From Bacteroidota bacterium (GTDB taxonomy: Bacteria > Bacteroidota > Ignavibacteria > Ignavibacteriales > Ignavibacteriaceae), in the NCBI GenBank assembly GCA_021824565.1, contig JAKAKL010000109.1:1-64000 (forward strand): a DNA stretch of 64,000 nt, read 5' to 3'. This document shows positions 936 through 62,965 of the stretch, piece by piece (positions within the stretch are counted from its first letter, which is position 1; the number at the start of each line of letters is the position of its first letter). The notes under the pieces were generated by a model, which saw nothing but the letters and a program-made list of their open reading frames with translations, ran no database searches and had not been told where the DNA came from. Made by a program: the position numbers and the translations under genes.

Positions 936-1085
936 ATTATGAATTTTATTTAGGACAAAAATCGACTTGACAAATGGGCACTATTTGAATAGTTTTTGCA
1001 ATCTTTATTTAGCCAATAATAAAAAAGCGGTACAAAATAATTTTAATCTTTTTTTATTTTCTAATTCAATAAAAAGGAACTAAAC

Positions 1086-2609
1086 ATGAAGCAAATTTTT
1101 GCGAGAAAACCTCTCAGTGTTTTGTTAGACGAAGTGAAAAGCGAGAACCGTCTGCGCCGCGTTCTTGGTCCGGTTGCGCTTACAAGCCTTGGCGTGGGCG
1201 CAATAATAGGAACAGGAATCTTTGTATTAACAGGAGTTGCAGCGCATGATAAAACAGGTCCTGCAATTGTTTTATCATTTGTCGTATCTGGAATAGCATG
1301 CGTGTTTGCGGCTTTATCCTATGCTGAATTTGCTTCGATGGTTCCGGTAGCCGGCTCTGCTTATACTTATGCCTACGCAACATTAGGAGAATTGTTTGCG
1401 TGGATCATCGGATGGGATTTAATTCTTGAATACGCGGTTGCATCGGCTACTGTTGCGCATGGATGGTCTCATTATTTCCAGGACTTTATTAGTATTATTG
1501 GAATTAAATTCGGGCATGTTGTATCAAATGCGCCGTTTGACTTTAATCCGGCGACAGGATTGCTTTCATCAACCGGCTCCGTACTCGACCTCCCGGCAAT
1601 ATTAATAACAGTGATTATTACTATAATTTTAGTAAAAGGAATTAAAGAAAGCGCAGGCTTCAACGCCGGTATTGTTATAACGAAATTAGCAATTGTGTTT
1701 TTAGTAATAATTGTCGGTGCATTTTATATAAACCCCGCGAACTGGCATCCATTCGCTCCATTTGGTTATTCGGGATTAAGTTTATTCGGAAGAACAATTT
1801 TAGGACAAACCGGACCTGGAGGCGCACCCGTCGGCGTTTTAGCGGGAGCGGCAATTATCTTCTTTGCGTACATCGGGTTTGATTCCGTTTCTACGCACTC
1901 TGAAGAAGCAAAAAATCCGAAGCGAGATGTCCCGATTGGAATTATTACATCTCTAATTCTTTGCACAGTATTATATATTGCAGTTTCAGGCGTGTTAACC
2001 GGAATGGTTGGATATAATAAAATAGATATCAATGCGCCGGTATCAAATGCATTTAAGCAGGTCGGATTAGTATGGGCGCAATTTCTTGTTTCGCTTGGAG
2101 CGGTGGCAGGTATTACATCGGTTCTTCTTGTTATGATGTTAAGCCAGGCAAGAATATTTTTAGCGATGGCAAGAGATGGACTGCTCCCGACAAAGTTCTT
2201 TGGCGACGTTCATGAAAAATATAGAACGCCCTGGAAGTCAACAATACTTACGGGAATTTTCGTTTCAATATTAGCAGGCTTTCTGCCTTTAAGAGTCTTA
2301 GCGGATTTAGTGAATATCGGTACTCTGTTTGCATTTGTAGTTGTTTGCGCCGCTGTTATAATTATGAGGAAGACGCATCCTGAGGCTGAACGTCCTTTTA
2401 GAGCGCCGCTTGTTCCGCTTGTGCCGATTCTTGGAATAATAACATGTACGGTACTTATGTTTTCACTTCCGGAAGAAAATTGGCTGCGTTTATTTGGATG
2501 GCTGGCTATCGGACTTGTAATTTATTTTACTTATGGAAGACATCACAGCATTATGAACAGGCTAATGAAAGAGGAAGAGGTCACTTCCGATGTAGGAAAA
2601 GTAAGCTAA
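1086..2609 (+). CDS. APC-family amino acid permease
   Basis: This 507-residue inner-membrane protein resembles the cationic amino acid transporter/YfnA branch of the amino acid-polyamine-organocation superfamily. The N-terminal signature GVGAIIGTGIFVLTG (around residues 36-50) forms the unwound part of helix 1 that binds substrate backbone. It is followed by SYAEFASMVPVAGSAYTYAY and, later, FFAYIGFDSVSTHSEEAKNPKRDVPIGI, both characteristic of the family. About twelve hydrophobic helices are spread along the length, which is normal for the family. AAGGA lies about 8 nt before the ATG. The gene stands alone between the hppA terminator and the first Ton cluster. The exact substrate cannot be read from the sequence. 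Confidence 0.93.
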   Translation: MKQIFARKPLSVLLDEVKSENRLRRVLGPVALTSLGVGAIIGTGIFVLTGVAAHDKTGPAIVLSFVVSGIACVFAALSYAEFASMVPVAGSAYTYAYATLGELFAWIIGWDLILEYAVASATVAHGWSHYFQDFISIIGIKFGHVVSNAPFDFNPATGLLSSTGSVLDLPAILITVIITIILVKGIKESAGFNAGIVITKLAIVFLVIIVGAFYINPANWHPFAPFGYSGLSLFGRTILGQTGPGGAPVGVLAGAAIIFFAYIGFDSVSTHSEEAKNPKRDVPIGIITSLILCTVLYIAVSGVLTGMVGYNKIDINAPVSNAFKQVGLVWAQFLVSLGAVAGITSVLLVMMLSQARIFLAMARDGLLPTKFFGDVHEKYRTPWKSTILTGIFVSILAGFLPLRVLADLVNIGTLFAFVVVCAAVIIMRKTHPEAERPFRAPLVPLVPILGIITCTVLMFSLPEENWLRLFGWLAIGLVIYFTYGRHHSIMNRLMKEEEVTSDVGKVS

Positions 2610-4762: not shown

Positions 4763-5120
4763 TTTTACGAATGACAGGCTGACATTATTTCAAGACCAAT
4801 TAAGAATTTTAGATAATCATTCCATTTAGTACTACGAGCATTTTAAGCTTTTGAACTGCTGAAATACTTTTTAGAATGACCCGCATAGGTTTTAGAAGGA
4901 CTGAATGACTGTGAAAAATGATTGATTAGACTTTTAGAACGACCAAACTATGATTTAAAATCACTGATTGTTGTTTTAAAACGACTGATGTGACATGAAA
5001 AATCATTGATTGAACTTTTAAAATGACCAAAATGAGTTGTAAAATCACTAATTGAGGTTTTCAAACAACCGAATTGAGTTTTAAAAAGACTAAATAAGCC
5101 TGAAAAATGATCAATTTAGA
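4763..5120. repeat. 21-nt periodic degenerate array, family A
   Basis: This fills most of the 640-nt gap between the convergent tonB and mgsA genes. From 4869 to 5120 twelve units follow each other at exactly 21 nt (starts 4869, 4890, 4911, 4932, 4953, 4974, 4995, 5016, 5037, 5058, 5079, 5100). About five weaker units extend back to 4763 with one slip. Two unit types alternate: one begins TTTTARAAYGACY and the other RTKWAAAATCAYTGATTG. Units 84 nt apart are more alike than neighbours (for example 4911/4995 and 4953/5037), so there is a four-unit higher-order repeat. Each unit carries an A/T tract at the same position. No gene is evident here. Confidence 0.9.
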
Positions 5121-27975: not shown

Positions 27976-29598
27976 ATGGAAAGAACTGACGAGCGCGAAG
28001 TCCAGCCTAATTTTAAATATCACTGGTTTGTTGCCGGAGATATAAACGGCTTTTTCGGATTGATGGTAGACAACTTAACCGTACTTTCTTTTCTTGCCGG
28101 TATTCTAATTTTTGCTTTTAAATATCCTGCCGATATTGTGTATGGAAAAATGTTCCCCGGCACTGCGCTCGGCGTTCTCTTTGGCGATCTTGTTTACACT
28201 TACATGGCGTTCCGGCTGGCAAAAAAAACAAAGAACCCGAATGTTACCGCGATGCCTCTTGGCTTGGACACTCCTTCAACAATTGGAATCGCGCTTACCG
28301 TTCTCGGTCCGTCTTTCATTTATCTCAAAGCTAAAGGAATGGCAGTAAACGACGCCGCTATGATGACGTGGTATATCGGCATGGCAACGATGATAATAAT
28401 CGGAGTAGTGAAATTAATTTTTTCTTTTATCGGCGGATGGATTCAAAAAATTGTTCCGCAGGCAGGCTTGCTCGGCAGCCTTGCGGGTATCGGGCTTGCA
28501 TTGATCGGCTTCATTCCTTTAGAAGATGTTTTCGGACTGCCGGTAATCGGTATGATCTCGCTCGGTCTCATCTTGTATACGTTAGTCGCAAAAATTAATC
28601 TGCCGAAAAAATTTCCCGGAGTATTTGCTGCGGTTCTGATCGGAACAATTCTATATTACATACTTGCGCCGATGGGATTGATCGGCGGAGGATTTACAGC
28701 GCCATCGATGACGCTTCATTACGGCGCGCCGGTTCCTACGCTTGGCTTTGTTAAAGGATTTGTAGAAGCTTTAAAATATATTCCCATTGCTTTGCCGTTT
28801 GCAATTCTTACAATTGTCGGCGGAATAAACGTAACAGAAAGCGCAAAGGTTGCGGGAGACGATTTTAATACAAAGCAGATATTGCTAACCGAGGCGTGCG
28901 CTACATTGATCGCCGGTCTATGCGGCGGCGTTGCTCAAACTACGCCTTATATCGGTCAACCCGCCTATAAAGCTATGGGAAGCAGAGCGGGTTATACAGT
29001 GCTTACCGGATTGTTCATCGGGCTTGGCGGAGTTTTGGGTTATGTTTCTTTCTTCGTTGAATTAATACCGCGCGCTGTTCTGGCTCCGATTTTAATTTTT
29101 GTCGCTCTTGATATTACAGTGCAGGCATTCAGAGCGTGTCCGCCTCATCATTTAACGGCAGTCGCGTTTTCTTTGTTCCCGAATATTTCAAGGATGCTTC
29201 AGATTAAGCTGAGCAACCCTGACGTAATTCCTATCGATAAATTTAATCAGCTTCTTACTCTGCCTGGAAAAGTTTTGCCTGAAACATTAGTTGTGGTTGC
29301 ACTTGGCAACGGATTTATTTTGACGGCTATGCTCTGGGGCGCGTTCGTCGCAAAATTAATTGACAGGAAATTAAAGCAGGCTTCTGTTTACTTAGGCATA
29401 ATGGCACTGCTGACTTTCTTCGGGATAATACATTCGGCAATGCCGGACGGAAATATGTATCTGCCGTGGCAGCTGCAGGATTTTATACGACAAATACCGT
29501 ATCAATTTACTTCGGCGTATTTGATACTCGCGGCTATGCTGTTCCTTCTTTCTTATACAAAGGAAAGCAAAGAACCGGCAAATTTATTAGAGCTTTGA
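27976..29598 (+). CDS. NCS2/AzgA-like permease (xanthine/uracil permease family)
   Basis: The 540-residue protein has about twelve to fourteen helices. The early region FVAGDINGFFGLMVDNLTVLSFLAGIL, then NPNVTAMPLGLDTPSTIGIALTVLG, and later GGINVTESAKVAGDDFNTKQILLTEACATLIAGLCGGVAQTTPYIGQPAYKAMGSRAGYT follow the plan of nucleobase-cation symporter 2 proteins, with the substrate helices in the middle. It resembles large uncharacterised AGZA-like members, so the substrate is uncertain. AAGGAG stands before the ATG. The last 59 nt of its sense end are duplicated at 32771-32829. Confidence 0.88.
   Translation: MERTDEREVQPNFKYHWFVAGDINGFFGLMVDNLTVLSFLAGILIFAFKYPADIVYGKMFPGTALGVLFGDLVYTYMAFRLAKKTKNPNVTAMPLGLDTPSTIGIALTVLGPSFIYLKAKGMAVNDAAMMTWYIGMATMIIIGVVKLIFSFIGGWIQKIVPQAGLLGSLAGIGLALIGFIPLEDVFGLPVIGMISLGLILYTLVAKINLPKKFPGVFAAVLIGTILYYILAPMGLIGGGFTAPSMTLHYGAPVPTLGFVKGFVEALKYIPIALPFAILTIVGGINVTESAKVAGDDFNTKQILLTEACATLIAGLCGGVAQTTPYIGQPAYKAMGSRAGYTVLTGLFIGLGGVLGYVSFFVELIPRAVLAPILIFVALDITVQAFRACPPHHLTAVAFSLFPNISRMLQIKLSNPDVIPIDKFNQLLTLPGKVLPETLVVVALGNGFILTAMLWGAFVAKLIDRKLKQASVYLGIMALLTFFGIIHSAMPDGNMYLPWQLQDFIRQIPYQFTSAYLILAAMLFLLSYTKESKEPANLLEL
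29534..29592 (+). repeat. 59-bp direct repeat, left copy (3' end of the permease gene)
   Basis: The sequence from CTATGCTGTTCC to TTATTAGAG is identical to 32771-32829. The coding frame of the permease ends at 29598, just after the repeat. The right copy reads into a different short ending with its own TAA stop. Confidence 0.95.
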
Positions 29599-32770: not shown

Positions 32771-32829
32771 CTATGCTGTTCCTTCTTTCTTATACAAAGG
32801 AAAGCAAAGAACCGGCAAATTTATTAGAG
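32771..32829 (+). repeat. 59-bp direct repeat, right copy
   Basis: This is an identical copy of the permease 3' end at 29534-29592, beginning about 10 nt after the transposase remnant. It has no gene of its own around it. It marks the right boundary of a 3.2-kb segment containing the T9SS hydrolase and the remnant. Confidence 0.95.
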
Positions 32830-33042
32830 ATTTAACGAAGAGGTGCAAAATTTTTAATATAAAGTTTTATTTCAAGTTTAATTTAGGTGGATGAAACTTT
32901 TACCAGTATAATATTTTAAATATTATAATTTACTAAAGTTTATAAAGCGATAAGAATAAATTTTCAATTCAGCTGATTAAGCGTAATCATTTGTTGCTGT
33001 TGAGAATTTAGAAATGCCTAAAGATTAACTTTTAACGGTCAT

Positions 33043-33810: not shown

Positions 33811-33947
33811 ACTAATTTTTCCCCCTACTTTAAACTACTTTGATCTTTATTGAGGAGGGGGCACAATCATTAAGAAAGTAAGTTATTCCAAAATTGATTT
33901 TAATGGAAATACTTTGGGAATCTTACTTTTTTCCCATCACCTTTGAT

Positions 33948-34325
33948 TTTTACTTCAAATTCGCATATTTATTGTCAAAATGTCCACATAAATTCTTTTT
34001 ACGTGCACATTTTAACTATTTACCTACGGATTTATTCTATTTATACGCACGTTTCAGATATTCATAAACTCATTTATTCTATTTATAAATATATTTCAGA
34101 TATTCATGCTGAAAGTAATTCTTTCCATTTGCGCGTTTCAGATATTTATAATCACATTCATTCTTTTTATGATAGCGTTTTAAGTATGTATGACGGCATT
34201 TATTCTTTAAATAAGAGCGTTCCAGGTATTTAAGTTATCAATTATTCTATCCATGAGCGCGTCTCAAGTATTTATGTTAATAGTTATTCTTTAGAGTTAC
34301 GCATCTAAGGAATTTGCCTGAATAC
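33948..34325. repeat. 21-nt periodic degenerate array, family B, copy 1
   Basis: About 18 units follow each other at exactly 21 nt; clear starts are 34032, 34053, 34074, 34095, 34116, 34137, 34158, 34179, 34200, 34221, 34242, 34263 and 34284. Two types alternate: TTATTCTATTTATA... and TTCAGATATTCAT..., and most units end in a purine/pyrimidine-alternating GCAT, GCGT or ACAT. Because 21 is divisible by three, one plus-strand frame stays open for 96 codons with heptad-like SDIH/YSIY repeats, but it is probably not a gene. The rest of the 33811-34596 gap shows nothing else recognisable. Confidence 0.92.
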
Positions 34326-34596
34326 TTTATCTTTTCATTTTCAAAGTTCAAATTCATTTTTATCCATAAATAAGATGAATGATAAAGAAGAAAATTAATC
34401 CGCAAATTCATAAGAGAATAAATTGTAGGAATTTGATTAATCAAATTCCTACCTAAATAAATGAAAACTTAGCACCGAGACAGCAAAAGATAAATTTATC
34501 TTAACAGAATCATCATTTTAATTCGTATAGTTTTAACCCGTAATAAAAATCAAGAAGAAACCAATTCATCAGGATGCTAAAAATGTATATCAACAA

Positions 34597-36372
34597 TTAT
34601 TCGCTTAAAATCCATCCGTGCTTGTTCATTTGATAGAAGATTATTCCGCCGAAGATAAAGCCGCCAATCAAGAAAATAATTCCAAGCGTAAAGCTGCCGA
34701 GTATTATTTGTCCAAGTCCGAAGAGGAAACAATAAATCATTGCTACTCCGGAAATCCAGTTAATCAAATTTAATATTCCGTCTTTTACCGGCACAACATC
34801 AGATACTTTCTTAGCTATTGGTCCCCAGAATCTCGCATTAGGTCTCACACTGCGATAAAATGAAATTAGCTTTTCTTCAGGCTCAGAACTCGTTAAAAAT
34901 GTTACTGCAACCCAAACTGTAGTTGTAAATGCAACGGTAATTAAAAGCAGGTATGCAAATTGTCTCGGATCATTTTCATCAAAGTGAAATCCGAACTGAA
35001 GAATCAACGAAATAGTAAATGCGGCTATCATTGCCGAAATCTCGCTCCACGCATTTATTCTCCACCAGAACCAGCGGAGAATATAGACCAAGCCGGTACC
35101 GGCTCCAATTGCCATTAAAAACTGCCACGCGCTTGCGATTGAGTCCATATAAAATGTAACTACTGCCGACAGGATCATTAGTACCATTGTTACTATCTGC
35201 GAGAAATTAACATAATGCTTTTCGTTTTTATTTTTTACATATCTTTTATAAACATCGTTAACAAGATAGCTTGCTCCCCAGTTAAGCTGTGTTCCTATTG
35301 TAGACATGTAAGCCGCTGCAAAGGCTGCGATCATAAGCCCGCGGAAATATGCCGGCAGATCTGAAATTAAAATTCTTATATATCCGGTTTCAGGATCGGC
35401 TAAGAACCTTGCATCATGCTGAAGTCGGACTACTGCAACCAACGCAACTAATATCCAGGGCCAGGGACGCAGCGCATAATGAGCAACATTAAACCAAAGT
35501 GTGGCAAGAAGAGAATGTTTTTCATTTTTAGCGCTGAAAATTCTTTGAGCTACATATCCGCCGCCGCCCGGTTCAGCGCCCGGGTACCACGATGCCCACC
35601 AATTGACAGCGATGAAAACAAAAAATGTTATCATCGGCATCCATGTAGAATTTAAATTCGGCACCATAGCCAGGATTGAGCTTGTTGCGTCTCTTGATTT
35701 ATCTACTGCGTGAAGTTGAGCTATAAGCGAGCCCATGCCTCCGGTGGCGTTTACCGCAAAAACGGCAAGCAGAATTACCATTCCCATCTTCAGAATAAAC
35801 TGGAAAAGATCTGTCCACAATACGCCCCACAAACCGGACAATGTTGAAATAGAGGCAGTGATAAACATAATACCGATAGCAATTGCGAGCGCTTCAATCT
35901 TATTTATTCCAAGGACAAGCATCATAATTTTTACGATGGCGAGATTAACCCATCCCATAATAATTAGGTTTATTGGAAGTCCAAGGTAAGCAGCGCGAAA
36001 CACTCTTAAGAAAGCGGCGGGTTTTCCGCTGTAACGTATTTCAGCAAACTCAACATCGGTAAGTACGCCGGCTCTTCGCCAAAGTTTTGCATAGAAAAAT
36101 ACGGTAAGTATTCCGCTGAATGCCATGCTCCACCAAATCCAGTTGCCGGCAATTCCATTTCTTGCAACAAGACCGGAAACTACAAGCGGAGTATCGGCAG
36201 CAAATGTGGTAGCAACCATAGAAGTGCCCGCTAGCCACCAGCTAACATTTCTGCCTGAGATGAAAAAATCGCTGACGCTTTTGGTTGCGCGCTTTCTTAA
36301 ATAAAGACCAACGCCGAGGTTGAACAAGAAGTAAAGGGCAATTACAATCCAATCGATATAATTTAACTGCAT
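34597..36372 (-). CDS. Sodium:solute symporter (SSS family)
   Basis: The 591-residue protein has about thirteen helices. The N-terminal DWIVIALYFLFNLGVGLYLRKRATKSVSDFFISGRNVSWWLAGTSMVATTFAADTPL is typical of the SSS family, with the SGR loop after helix 1 and a substrate-side helix 2. Later, AAFAAAYMSTIGTQLNWGASYLVNDVYKRY holds the family signature with the sodium-site serine/threonine residues. It is longer than PutP-type members. GGAGGAAT before the ATG is strong. Substrate is not apparent; many such proteins in this group carry sugars or carboxylates. Confidence 0.92.
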   Translation of the reverse strand: MQLNYIDWIVIALYFLFNLGVGLYLRKRATKSVSDFFISGRNVSWWLAGTSMVATTFAADTPLVVSGLVARNGIAGNWIWWSMAFSGILTVFFYAKLWRRAGVLTDVEFAEIRYSGKPAAFLRVFRAAYLGLPINLIIMGWVNLAIVKIMMLVLGINKIEALAIAIGIMFITASISTLSGLWGVLWTDLFQFILKMGMVILLAVFAVNATGGMGSLIAQLHAVDKSRDATSSILAMVPNLNSTWMPMITFFVFIAVNWWASWYPGAEPGGGGYVAQRIFSAKNEKHSLLATLWFNVAHYALRPWPWILVALVAVVRLQHDARFLADPETGYIRILISDLPAYFRGLMIAAFAAAYMSTIGTQLNWGASYLVNDVYKRYVKNKNEKHYVNFSQIVTMVLMILSAVVTFYMDSIASAWQFLMAIGAGTGLVYILRWFWWRINAWSEISAMIAAFTISLILQFGFHFDENDPRQFAYLLLITVAFTTTVWVAVTFLTSSEPEEKLISFYRSVRPNARFWGPIAKKVSDVVPVKDGILNLINWISGVAMIYCFLFGLGQIILGSFTLGIIFLIGGFIFGGIIFYQMNKHGWILSE

Positions 36373-51277: not shown

Positions 51278-52426
51278 ATGCCACTATTAATTATTGCAGT
51301 AATATTGTTCGTTATTGCTGACGTCTTGATCAGGCAGATCAGCAAAAGAGTACGCGAACAAAAAGAAAGAAAAGACCGCGAAGCCGCTTTGGCGGTAAGC
51401 CTAAACCTGGATTTTACCAGAGAATCAAAAACATTGAAGCGGGTTGAAGTTGTTAATCCCAAAGCAAAAATTCTTTGTGTTGACGACGAGCCTGTAATAC
51501 TCGACAGCTTTAGAAAAATTCTTGTGCTCGACGGTTATTGTGTCGATACGGTAGAGACCGGTCAGGAAGCGCTTGGATTAATTCAATCGCGTCATTATGA
51601 TTTTGTCTTTACTGATCTTAAAATGCCGCAGATGGATGGAGTAGAAGTTACTAAATCAGTAAAACATCTTCGCCCTGATATTGACGTTGTTATCATAACC
51701 GGATTTGCGACGGTTGAAACGGCAGTTGAGTGCATGAAATTCGGCGCGATGGATTACGTTCAAAAACCATTTACCGAAGATGAGCTTCTTGAGTTTGTCA
51801 AAAAAATATTAATTAAAAGACAGGATAGAATTCAGAAGCAATTAAAGCCTAAAGTTCACATCACTCATTTGACCGGCTCGAAGCATTTTAAAACTTATGA
51901 GTTCGCGATACCTGGCGGAGTATTTATTTCTGCCGGTCATTGCTGGACAAGTATGGAACAGGACGGAACCGTAAAGATTGGCGTCGACGACTTTGCTAAA
52001 AAGCTTATTGGAAAAATCGATTCAATAGATTTTCCAAATCTTGGTATGATTGTAAAAGCCGGTCAGCCTTTGTTTACGGTAAAGCAAGGGAACCGTTCGG
52101 TTACTTTCAATTCGCCTTTATCCGGAAAAGTTACAAAGCTTAATATGCCGCTGAAGAATGAAATGGAATCTCTCGACATTACACCTTACGAATCAAACTG
52201 GGTTTGCATACTCGACGCTGAAAATCTTGATACTGAAATTAAAAATCTAAAGATCGGCAAGACAGCTGTTGCTTATTACCAGGAAGATATTGACAGGCTG
52301 ATTGCTTTAAGAAAAAAATCCGGCGGCAGTTCTTCAAACAATTATGACGAACTCCAGGAAGGGGAATTTGAAAAGCTTAGCGACACTGAATTTTATTCAA
52401 TGGTCAGCGAGTTTTTTAAGAAGTAA
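51278..52426 (+). CDS. Membrane-anchored response regulator with GcvH-like domain
   Basis: The 382-residue protein has an N-terminal membrane helix (about 2-19), a charged linker, a receiver (about 63-185, Asp113 in VFTDLKMPQMDG) and a GcvH-like domain: AGHCWTSMEQDGTVKIGVDDFAKKLIGKIDSIDFP, then SPLSGKVTKLN and a YESNWVCIL segment. The lipoyl lysine position appears as Asn. A tail of about 80 residues follows. A receiver domain anchored to the membrane is unusual. It probably acts on the haem-kinase signal near the respiratory complex. A hairpin follows the gene. Confidence 0.88.
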   Translation: MPLLIIAVILFVIADVLIRQISKRVREQKERKDREAALAVSLNLDFTRESKTLKRVEVVNPKAKILCVDDEPVILDSFRKILVLDGYCVDTVETGQEALGLIQSRHYDFVFTDLKMPQMDGVEVTKSVKHLRPDIDVVIITGFATVETAVECMKFGAMDYVQKPFTEDELLEFVKKILIKRQDRIQKQLKPKVHITHLTGSKHFKTYEFAIPGGVFISAGHCWTSMEQDGTVKIGVDDFAKKLIGKIDSIDFPNLGMIVKAGQPLFTVKQGNRSVTFNSPLSGKVTKLNMPLKNEMESLDITPYESNWVCILDAENLDTEIKNLKIGKTAVAYYQEDIDRLIALRKKSGGSSSNNYDELQEGEFEKLSDTEFYSMVSEFFKK

Positions 52427-52459: not shown

Positions 52460-52492
52460 TTAAAAATAGAGCTTCTATTTGACTTATCTTCG

Positions 52493-52905
52493 ATTTTTGC
52501 TTCAAATTCGCATATTTATTGTCAAAATGTCCACATAAATTCTTTTTACGTGCACATTTTAACTATTTACCTGCGGATTTATTCTATTTATACGCACGTT
52601 TCAGATATTCATAAACGCATTAATTCTATTTATAAGTGCATTTCAGATATTCACACATACATTTATTCTATTTATAAATTCATTTCAGATATTCATGCTG
52701 AAAGTAATTCTTTCCATTTGCACGTTTCAGATATTTATAATCACATTTATTCTTTTTATGATAGCGTTTTAAGTATGTATGACGGCATTTATTCTTTAAA
52801 TAAGAGCGTTCCAGTTATTTAAGTTATCATTTATTCTATCCATGTGTGCATCTCAAGTTTTTTTATTAATAGTTATTCTTTAGAGTTATGCGTCTAAGGA
52901 ATTTT
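52493..52905. repeat. 21-nt periodic degenerate array, family B, copy 2
   Basis: This is a near copy of 33948-34325 (about 94% identical over the last 210 nt by eye). It keeps the same 21-nt period and alternating unit types. From the shared TTCAAATTCG to the shared CTAAGG it spans 393 nt against 351 nt in copy 1, a difference of exactly 42 nt, or one dimer. It fills the gap between the response regulator and macro-domain genes. The corresponding plus-strand frame stays open for 90 codons, but changes between the copies mostly alter amino acids. Confidence 0.92.
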
Positions 52906-53053
52906 CGTAAACACTTCATCTTTTGAAATAAATATGAAGATTTTAAATTCAGCATAATAATCAGCATGTTGAGAAAAAAATTTTTGAATTCATTCTTGTC
53001 TTTTTTCTCATGTTTATATTGAACAAAGTTTTTGATAACTTGCTGAGGATTAT

Positions 53054-53590
53054 ATGAGGTCGGAAATGGAATCAATCATATATAATAAAATTGAAATTGT
53101 TAGAGGAGATATTACAAAGCTGAATGTTGATGCGATTGTTAATGCCGCCAACACAAGTCTGCTTGGCGGAGGCGGAGTAGACGGCGCAATTCACCGCGCT
53201 GCCGGGCATGAACTTCTTGATTACTGCCGAAAACTTAATGGCTGTCGAACCGGAGAATCAAAAATAACTCCCGGGTATAAATTGCCTGCAAACTTTGTAA
53301 TTCATACCGTTGGACCAGTCTGGCGCGGCGGCGCGCAAAATGAACCAATGCTTCTGCAAAGCTGCTATAAGACTTCACTAACATTGGCAGTCGAAAATAA
53401 AATAAAGACAATCGCTTTCCCCGCCATCAGCACGGGTATTTACAGCTACCCGGTTTACGATGCCGCTAAAATTGCCGTAAGAACCACTTTGGATTTTCTT
53501 CAGAATAATTCTTCTATTGAAAAAGTTATTTTTGTCTGCTTTGATGAAAGAACTTTCCACGTTTACAAAGAGGTAATTGAGGAACTATAA
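53054..53590 (+). CDS. Macro-domain protein (ADP-ribose hydrolase type)
   Basis: The 178-residue protein is a single macro domain, of the kind that binds ADP-ribose and removes O-acetyl or ADP-ribosyl groups. Signature segments are IEIVRGDITKLNVDAIVNAANTSLLGGGGVDGAIHRAAG, with the catalytic Asn/Asp loop, and IAFPAISTGIYSYPVYDAAKIAV. Length is normal. The first ATG (53054) has TGAGG before it, and the Met at codon five is also possible. It is close to E. coli YmdB-type proteins. Confidence 0.94.
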   Translation: MRSEMESIIYNKIEIVRGDITKLNVDAIVNAANTSLLGGGGVDGAIHRAAGHELLDYCRKLNGCRTGESKITPGYKLPANFVIHTVGPVWRGGAQNEPMLLQSCYKTSLTLAVENKIKTIAFPAISTGIYSYPVYDAAKIAVRTTLDFLQNNSSIEKVIFVCFDERTFHVYKEVIEEL

Positions 53591-62437: not shown

Positions 62438-62482
62438 AATTTTAATGCAGCCCCAAATTATGACACCAAAATAACCATTAAA

Positions 62483-62965
62483 AATAGCGGTATTTTAAAT
62501 TGCAATAGCGCTATTTTAATTTGGAAAAGCAGTATTTCAAATTCCAAAAGCACTATTTTAAATAACAAAAGCGCTTTCGTTATTAATGAGAGCGCTTCTG
62601 TTATTAATAGGTCTGGGTTTGTTATTAATGAAAGCCCAACCGTTATTAACAAGTCTGGAGTTGTTATTAATGAAAGCCCAACCGTTATTAACAAGTGCGG
62701 AGTTGTTATTAATGAAAGCCCAACCGTTATTAACAAGTGCGGAGTTGTTATTAATGAAAGCCCAACTGTTATTAACAAGTCTGGAGTTGTTATTAATGAA
62801 AGCGCAATTGTTATTAACAAGTCTGGAGTTGTTATTAATGAAAGCCCAATTGTTATTAATAAAAGCACTCTTGTTATTTAAAATAGTGCTATTGTAAATG
62901 GGAAAAGCGGTATTTCAAATAAGAAAAGCGGAATTTTGAACAAAAACACAATATATAACTAAATC
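62483..62965. repeat. 21-nt periodic degenerate array, family C (23 units)
   Basis: Units start every 21 nt without an indel from 62483 to 62945. The outer units read like AATAGCGGTATTTTAAATT and AAAAGCRSTATTTCAAAT. The central units (62567-62861) end in GTTATTAA and alternate between GAAAGCCCAACCGTTATTA and AAGTCTGGAGTTGTTATTA types, giving a 42-nt period. Both strands remain open for more than 100 codons because of the period. It occupies much of the 945-nt gap between tsaC and the T9SS peptidase. Outside it and the hairpins I see nothing in this gap. Confidence 0.93.

Follow-up and report, generated by a model that had tools for sequence, protein, structure and literature searches.

The genome examined here carries a class of short, dispersed, and mostly non-coding tandem arrays that keep a strict spacing of two helical turns and gain or lose whole units (21 bp corresponds to two turns of the DNA helix, and 42 bp to four). 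The exact 21-bp register, often expressed as 42-bp pairs, holds even in strongly diverged edge units. Sequences are mostly unrelated across array families; the arrays themselves are ~200-700 bp long and intergenic, with neighboring genes in all orientations. No description of 21-bp or 42-bp arrays in bacteria was found in the open-access literature searched. The detailed evidence begins with the window, the whole 64,000-nt stretch of DNA analyzed, which lies on contig C47 of a draft genome of 4.59 Mb in 148 contigs and contains arrays A and C and two copies of array B (B1 and B2; Table 1).

Length change in arrays B and C

Read directly, the distance from TTCAAATTCG to CTAAGG is 393 nt in B2 (52501-52894) and 351 nt in B1 (33954-34305), exactly the lengths given by an earlier sequence-only reading of this DNA. 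Alignment of the two copies yields a single gap, and the one 42-nt dimer that fills it in B2 accounts for the entire difference, again as that reading had stated. The unit types alternate in the described manner (CATTTATTCTATTTAT-n5-CATTTCAGATATTCAT-n5), and TRF, run as an independent check, returned a period of 42/21 for array B. Outside the gap, B1 and B2 differ by 16 substitutions over ~360 positions (~4%), with no further length change in the array interior; their homology (E ~1e-141, far beyond chance) extends slightly past the originally quoted flanks, to the limits given in Table 1.

The extra dimer of B2 shares at best 81-88% identity with the nearest 42-mer in either array. A dimer gained after the copies split would be near-identical to its source; because this one is only 81-88% like its nearest relative while the arrays are ~4% apart, the dimer would predate the duplication of B, and the direction of change was probably a contraction of B1 (the 33.9-kb copy).

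The sequence-only reading had also proposed that the arrays expand and contract in steps of 42 nt. Length change by whole units is indeed observed, by 42 nt in B, but the 42-nt quantum is not general. Among the eight copies of the array C family, every one of the 28 pairwise net gap sums is divisible by 21, several being odd multiples, and the anchored distances (438, 459, 459, 543, and 501 nt) all equal 18 modulo 21; the step is thus 21, with pairs frequent. Length differences indivisible by 21, which that reading had named as evidence against itself, were found in none of the comparable copies; the comparison leaves out the third B copy and those of congener G012 (see below), which have only the left end in common with B1 and B2. 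A pure 42-bp family (CTTGCATGCCAGCAAATATTAGTCTTTGTTGTACTACAAAAC; two copies, at C5:33.7-34.1 kb and C20:69.4-69.9 kb) has no 21-bp half-repeat, so in some families the primary unit can be 42 bp.

TABLE 1 Arrays in the window, their internal segments, and genes neighboring array B
Feature	Position	Strand	Remarks
Array A	4887..5093		21/42-bp register; unit ~TTTAAAA-YGACTGA-n6; relative in G012 (L112:11-466)
Array B copy 1 (B1)	33941..34335	+	Block shorter by one dimer
B1 left-end segment	33954..33994	+	Matches that of B2
Sodium/solute symporter	34597..36372	-	Neighbor of B1
Response-regulator receiver domain protein	51278..52426	+	Upstream neighbor of B2; adjoins macro-domain gene in congeners too
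Array B copy 2 (B2)	52488..52924	+	~18 units of 21 bp, alternating pairs
B2 left-end segment (TTCAAATTCGCATATTTATTGTCAAAATGTCCACAT...)	52501..52541	+	Present in every B copy, in G012, and (first ~35 nt) in G007
B2 extra 42-nt dimer	52617..52658	+	Missing in B1; from alignment
Macro-domain protein (O-acetyl-ADP-ribose deacetylase-like)	53054..53590	+	Downstream neighbor of B2
Array C	62479..62942		21/42-bp register; about 8 further dispersed copies in genome; dyad-symmetric units

Dispersal of array B and its genomic neighborhood

A search of the whole genome found a single further copy of array B (B3, at C46:29668-30108). Among 58 relatives searched, congener G012 has two copies in the 42-bp register with the same left end, TTCAAATTCGCATATTTAT, and congener G007 a degenerate copy with ATTTATTCT motifs 63 and 42 nt apart. 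The copies agree best at the left end, and right ends diverge outside B1/B2. These additional occurrences support the earlier claim that the array is dispersed as a block; in line with the accompanying statement, neither a transposase nor inverted ends were found next to B1 or B2.

At the B2 site, between the response-regulator and macro-domain genes, the array is absent in 11 congeners, where synteny is conserved, and B2 is therefore specific to the source lineage. The orthologous space measures 20-248 nt in these congeners, or 739 nt in G007 through an unrelated insertion. Its flanks align poorly across congeners and provide no clean empty site for judging target duplication; no target duplication was seen at B1 or B2, though with no alignable empty site for comparison. 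In G007 (L086, on G007:C111), the beginning of the macro-domain gene recurs in this space as a truncated second copy, with an unrelated small ORF behind it, which suggests a duplication or insertion hot spot. The neighbors of arrays A, B1, and C differ as well in the congeners examined. Elsewhere in the window, a T9SS sorting domain is present, and one window protein has its best named relative in an Ignavibacterium metagenome-assembled genome (70% identity); an affiliation close to the Ignavibacteria is therefore likely.

Several other repeated sequences were observed. A perfect 28-nt palindrome, GTAGGAATTTGATTAATCAAATTCCTAC, lies beside B1 (window 34425-34452), with further copies at C20:323560 and C20:75456, one of them identical and ~0.9 kb from another array, the other near-identical and 5.6 kb from a third array; it is a small dispersed palindromic element. 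Short elements with inverted ends, ACTGAAGTTA(C/T)GCA ... (TGCGT/TGTGT)AACTTCAG, occur at C20:160694-160937 and, judged at the ends read, in congeners G001 and G012 (L248, L249, downstream of the symporter); on the sequence of these ends, such elements appear as would be expected of a MITE. A 63-nt stretch is repeated within the window at 98% identity, 3.2 kb apart (29534-29596 and 32771-32833); one copy ends a 540-aa ORF with no Pfam match, the other is non-coding, and the pair resembles a partly duplicated gene end. A phage or plasmid origin of the arrays was rejected, as no similar DNA was found in phage or plasmid collections. Two exact motif patterns had no match in viral contigs, and a pattern scan of genome contigs likewise returned none.

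A 21-bp register across the genome and its occurrence in the genus

A tandem-similarity scan of 1.11 Mb, about a quarter of the draft genome, under detection thresholds of our own choosing, identified 44 arrays, 31 of which have a period of 21, 42, or 84. In contigs fetched regardless of hits (466 kb), 12 of 17 arrays are in the 21/42-bp register, a density of ~26 per Mb; by extrapolation, the genome would contain roughly 120 register arrays. The same scan applied to 1.23 Mb of 80 other bacteria returned no array in this register. Within the genus, G012 has six arrays in 140 kb (two stretches picked for their B hits) and G001 two in 180 kb; G004, G005, G007, and G009 have none in the 40-120 kb scanned of each. 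Outside the genus, none were found in 460 kb from six genomes (60 kb of G013, from another genus, and 400 kb of five genomes of the family or order). The arrays are not essential, because most sampled congeners lack them.

Column pattern, symmetry, and structure

When 28 arrays are combined, clustering of the conserved columns is significant (p 1.5e-6) and the columns show an antiphase tendency at lag 10 (p 0.004), with no codon periodicity in the variation (p 0.38); these values are approximate, since arrays were treated as independent and some share a family. The block form is extreme at C5:77 kb, where roughly ten positions (AGAAATCGAT) are conserved and eleven vary. In array B alone, block clustering is not significant. 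Of the arrays tested, about half have a 21-bp unit whose dyad symmetry exceeds that of column-permuted controls; A and B do not.

Two structural properties were rejected as a common theme. Folding z-scores indicative of RNA structure are strong mainly in dyad-symmetric arrays, and on both strands; no Rfam families were found in the window. Intrinsic curvature, calculated with wedge angles, has a mean percentile of 0.56 against column-permuted controls.

Coding potential

As 21 nt equals seven codons, the arrays could instead be heptapeptide-repeat coding elements, live or decayed, that is, coiled-coil or solenoid genes or pseudogenes. Open heptad frames are present (in B: HVSDIHK RINSIYK CISDIHT), and dyad-symmetric, dispersed, tandem coding repeats are described in the palindromic amphipathic repeat coding elements, or PARCEL (PMC2996958). 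In a hexamer coding model trained on the genome itself, held-out genes score 0.24-0.90 (5th-95th percentile) and intergenic sequence, at the best of six frames, -0.64 to 0.10. The three copies of array B score at the intergenic level even in their best frame (-0.23 to 0.04), and most arrays fall below 0.24. Gene-like scores are confined to C10:1.0 kb (988-1383, plus strand; NIFEVLSDFNELVE), C10:37 kb (37.3-38.0 kb, minus strand; GAEQLEV), and C8:1.2 kb, with C3:13 kb marginal. The two on C10 are coding-looking 21/42-nt arrays of heptad repeats with a G+C content above the genome mean. These two and C8:1.2 kb may be coding.

Further observations count against coding. Substitutions between B1, B2, and B3, and between copies of C, show no coding-like third-position bias, in keeping with the lack of codon periodicity across the combined arrays. 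Column shuffles of B yield about as many stop codons as B contains, and a few other arrays are depleted of stops in one frame. Frames of B and C match no Pfam family above the curated cut-off and give no convincing PHROG match. A coding role for array B was rejected on its hexamer score, its codon-position counts, and its stop counts; for array C, whose flanks read well in one frame, it is opposed by codon-position counts of 332/241/368 and by in-frame stops, which occur in most copies. As an explanation of the arrays, heptapeptide coding is improbable, and ORFs that look like heptapeptide repeats need not be genes in genomes of this kind.

A possible scaffold role

A tentative reading, which we regard as plausible, is that B1 and B2 are two copies of one member of a genome-wide, mostly non-coding, satellite-like class whose helical register is read face by face and whose arrays are binding scaffolds. 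Copy number would shift by unequal exchange or slippage between units, a process suggested by the combination of homogeneous centers and diverged, in-register edges, which is its usual outcome. Such exchange explains unit-wise change and homogeneous centers; it does not explain the common 21 bp or the register at diverged edges. Retention of the register would then reflect this face-by-face reading: a protein may contact alternate turns along one side, binding cooperatively along the array, and the arrays would form scaffolds for chromosome organization, silencing, or segregation.

If a protein reading a single face of the DNA exerted selection on helical phase, both the spacing and the tendency of conserved and variable turns to alternate would be explained, a suggestion we likewise advance with reserve. 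One conserved turn followed by a variable one is as expected for a protein contacting alternate turns on one side, and units with dyad symmetry, present in roughly half of the arrays tested, fit a dimeric binder and were counted in favor of a scaffold. Counted against it are array B, which lacks both dyad symmetry and significant block clustering of its own, curvature, which is no higher than in controls, and the absence of the arrays from most sampled congeners. Because the conserved blocks are not the same from family to family, no single sequence-specific protein can read all of them; no candidate for the scaffold-binding protein was identified. The broader claim, that some members of the genus carry a genome-wide set of many unrelated intergenic satellites whose sole common trait is a two-turn register selected through a chromosomal protein on one face, is possible but doubtful.

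The same observations could also reflect neutral satellites. All arrays would then derive from a small number of ancestral 21-bp arrays that dispersed through short segmental copying or gene conversion, diverged past recognition, and have no function; their register would persist solely because whole units are gained or lost when units recombine. Homogeneous centers with diverged edges, patchy presence within the genus, the lack of a preferred gene orientation beside arrays, and weak cross-family likenesses (e.g., C46:46 kb and C20:49 kb) are all consistent with such a history. However, neutral non-coding DNA should gather indels, whereas diverged edge units, inspected by eye, are almost free of them, and conserved positions are grouped in blocks; we consider functionless satellites somewhat unlikely.

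Bacterial tandem repeats are usually seen as locus-specific accidents of slippage. Dozens of arrays under one spacing rule would point either to an unrecognized DNA-reading protein or to an unrecognized copying mechanism that works in 21-bp steps; as the arrays are patchily spread among congeners, both readings are testable by comparison.

Comparison with known systems

Like bacterial minisatellites (VNTR), these are intergenic tandem arrays whose copy number varies by whole units: units run head to tail, and copies differ by 42 nt in B and by multiples of 21 in C. VNTR loci differ in having locus-specific, arbitrary periods, whereas here largely unrelated sequences keep one 21/42-bp register and some are dispersed as blocks.

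PARCEL resemble the present arrays as dispersed tandem repeats with a patchy distribution. Dyad symmetry of the repeat DNA, another PARCEL trait, is seen here in roughly half of the arrays, A and B excepted. PARCEL repeats, however, are coding, 25 residues (75 nt) long, and located in ORFs, whereas the units described here measure 21 bp and, in the tests applied, mostly score as non-coding. The profile PF03382 (DUF285), which we take to represent the PARCEL domain family, had no match in the genome, and no control matched it either.

Guide-RNA arrays of the TIGR-Tas kind, with alternating repeats and short spacers, have a unit layout resembling the 42-bp dimers: two alternating repeats of 8-12 nt with spacers of ~9 nt (PMC12045711). 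Alternating pairs of short repeats and short variable stretches are thus found in both, but the variable stretches here are shorter (only ~5 nt in B), and one genome holds many unrelated families. The Nop-domain profile PF01798 matched four archaeal controls and nothing in this genome, although a divergent Tas could be missed, and no cognate gene was seen adjoining B1 or B2. A guide-RNA function is very improbable.

Iteron arrays, found at plasmid origins and centromeres, are tandem sites of ~20-22 bp in helical phase that bind protein cooperatively, and they share this site length and phasing with the arrays described here. They differ in that a single sequence and a single cognate protein serve one or a few loci; no such protein was identified for the present arrays.

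Eukaryotic satellite DNA turns over rapidly between species, has homogeneous centers and diverged edges, and has a unit length tied to the nucleosome. The arrays described here show similar turnover and the same pattern of centers and edges, and, if the helical reading is right, their unit would also be tied to a structural repeat, in this case the helix turn. They differ as arrays of 200-700 bp scattered between bacterial genes, with a chromosomal role that is a proposal; if it is true, they would be a bacterial counterpart of phased satellite DNA.
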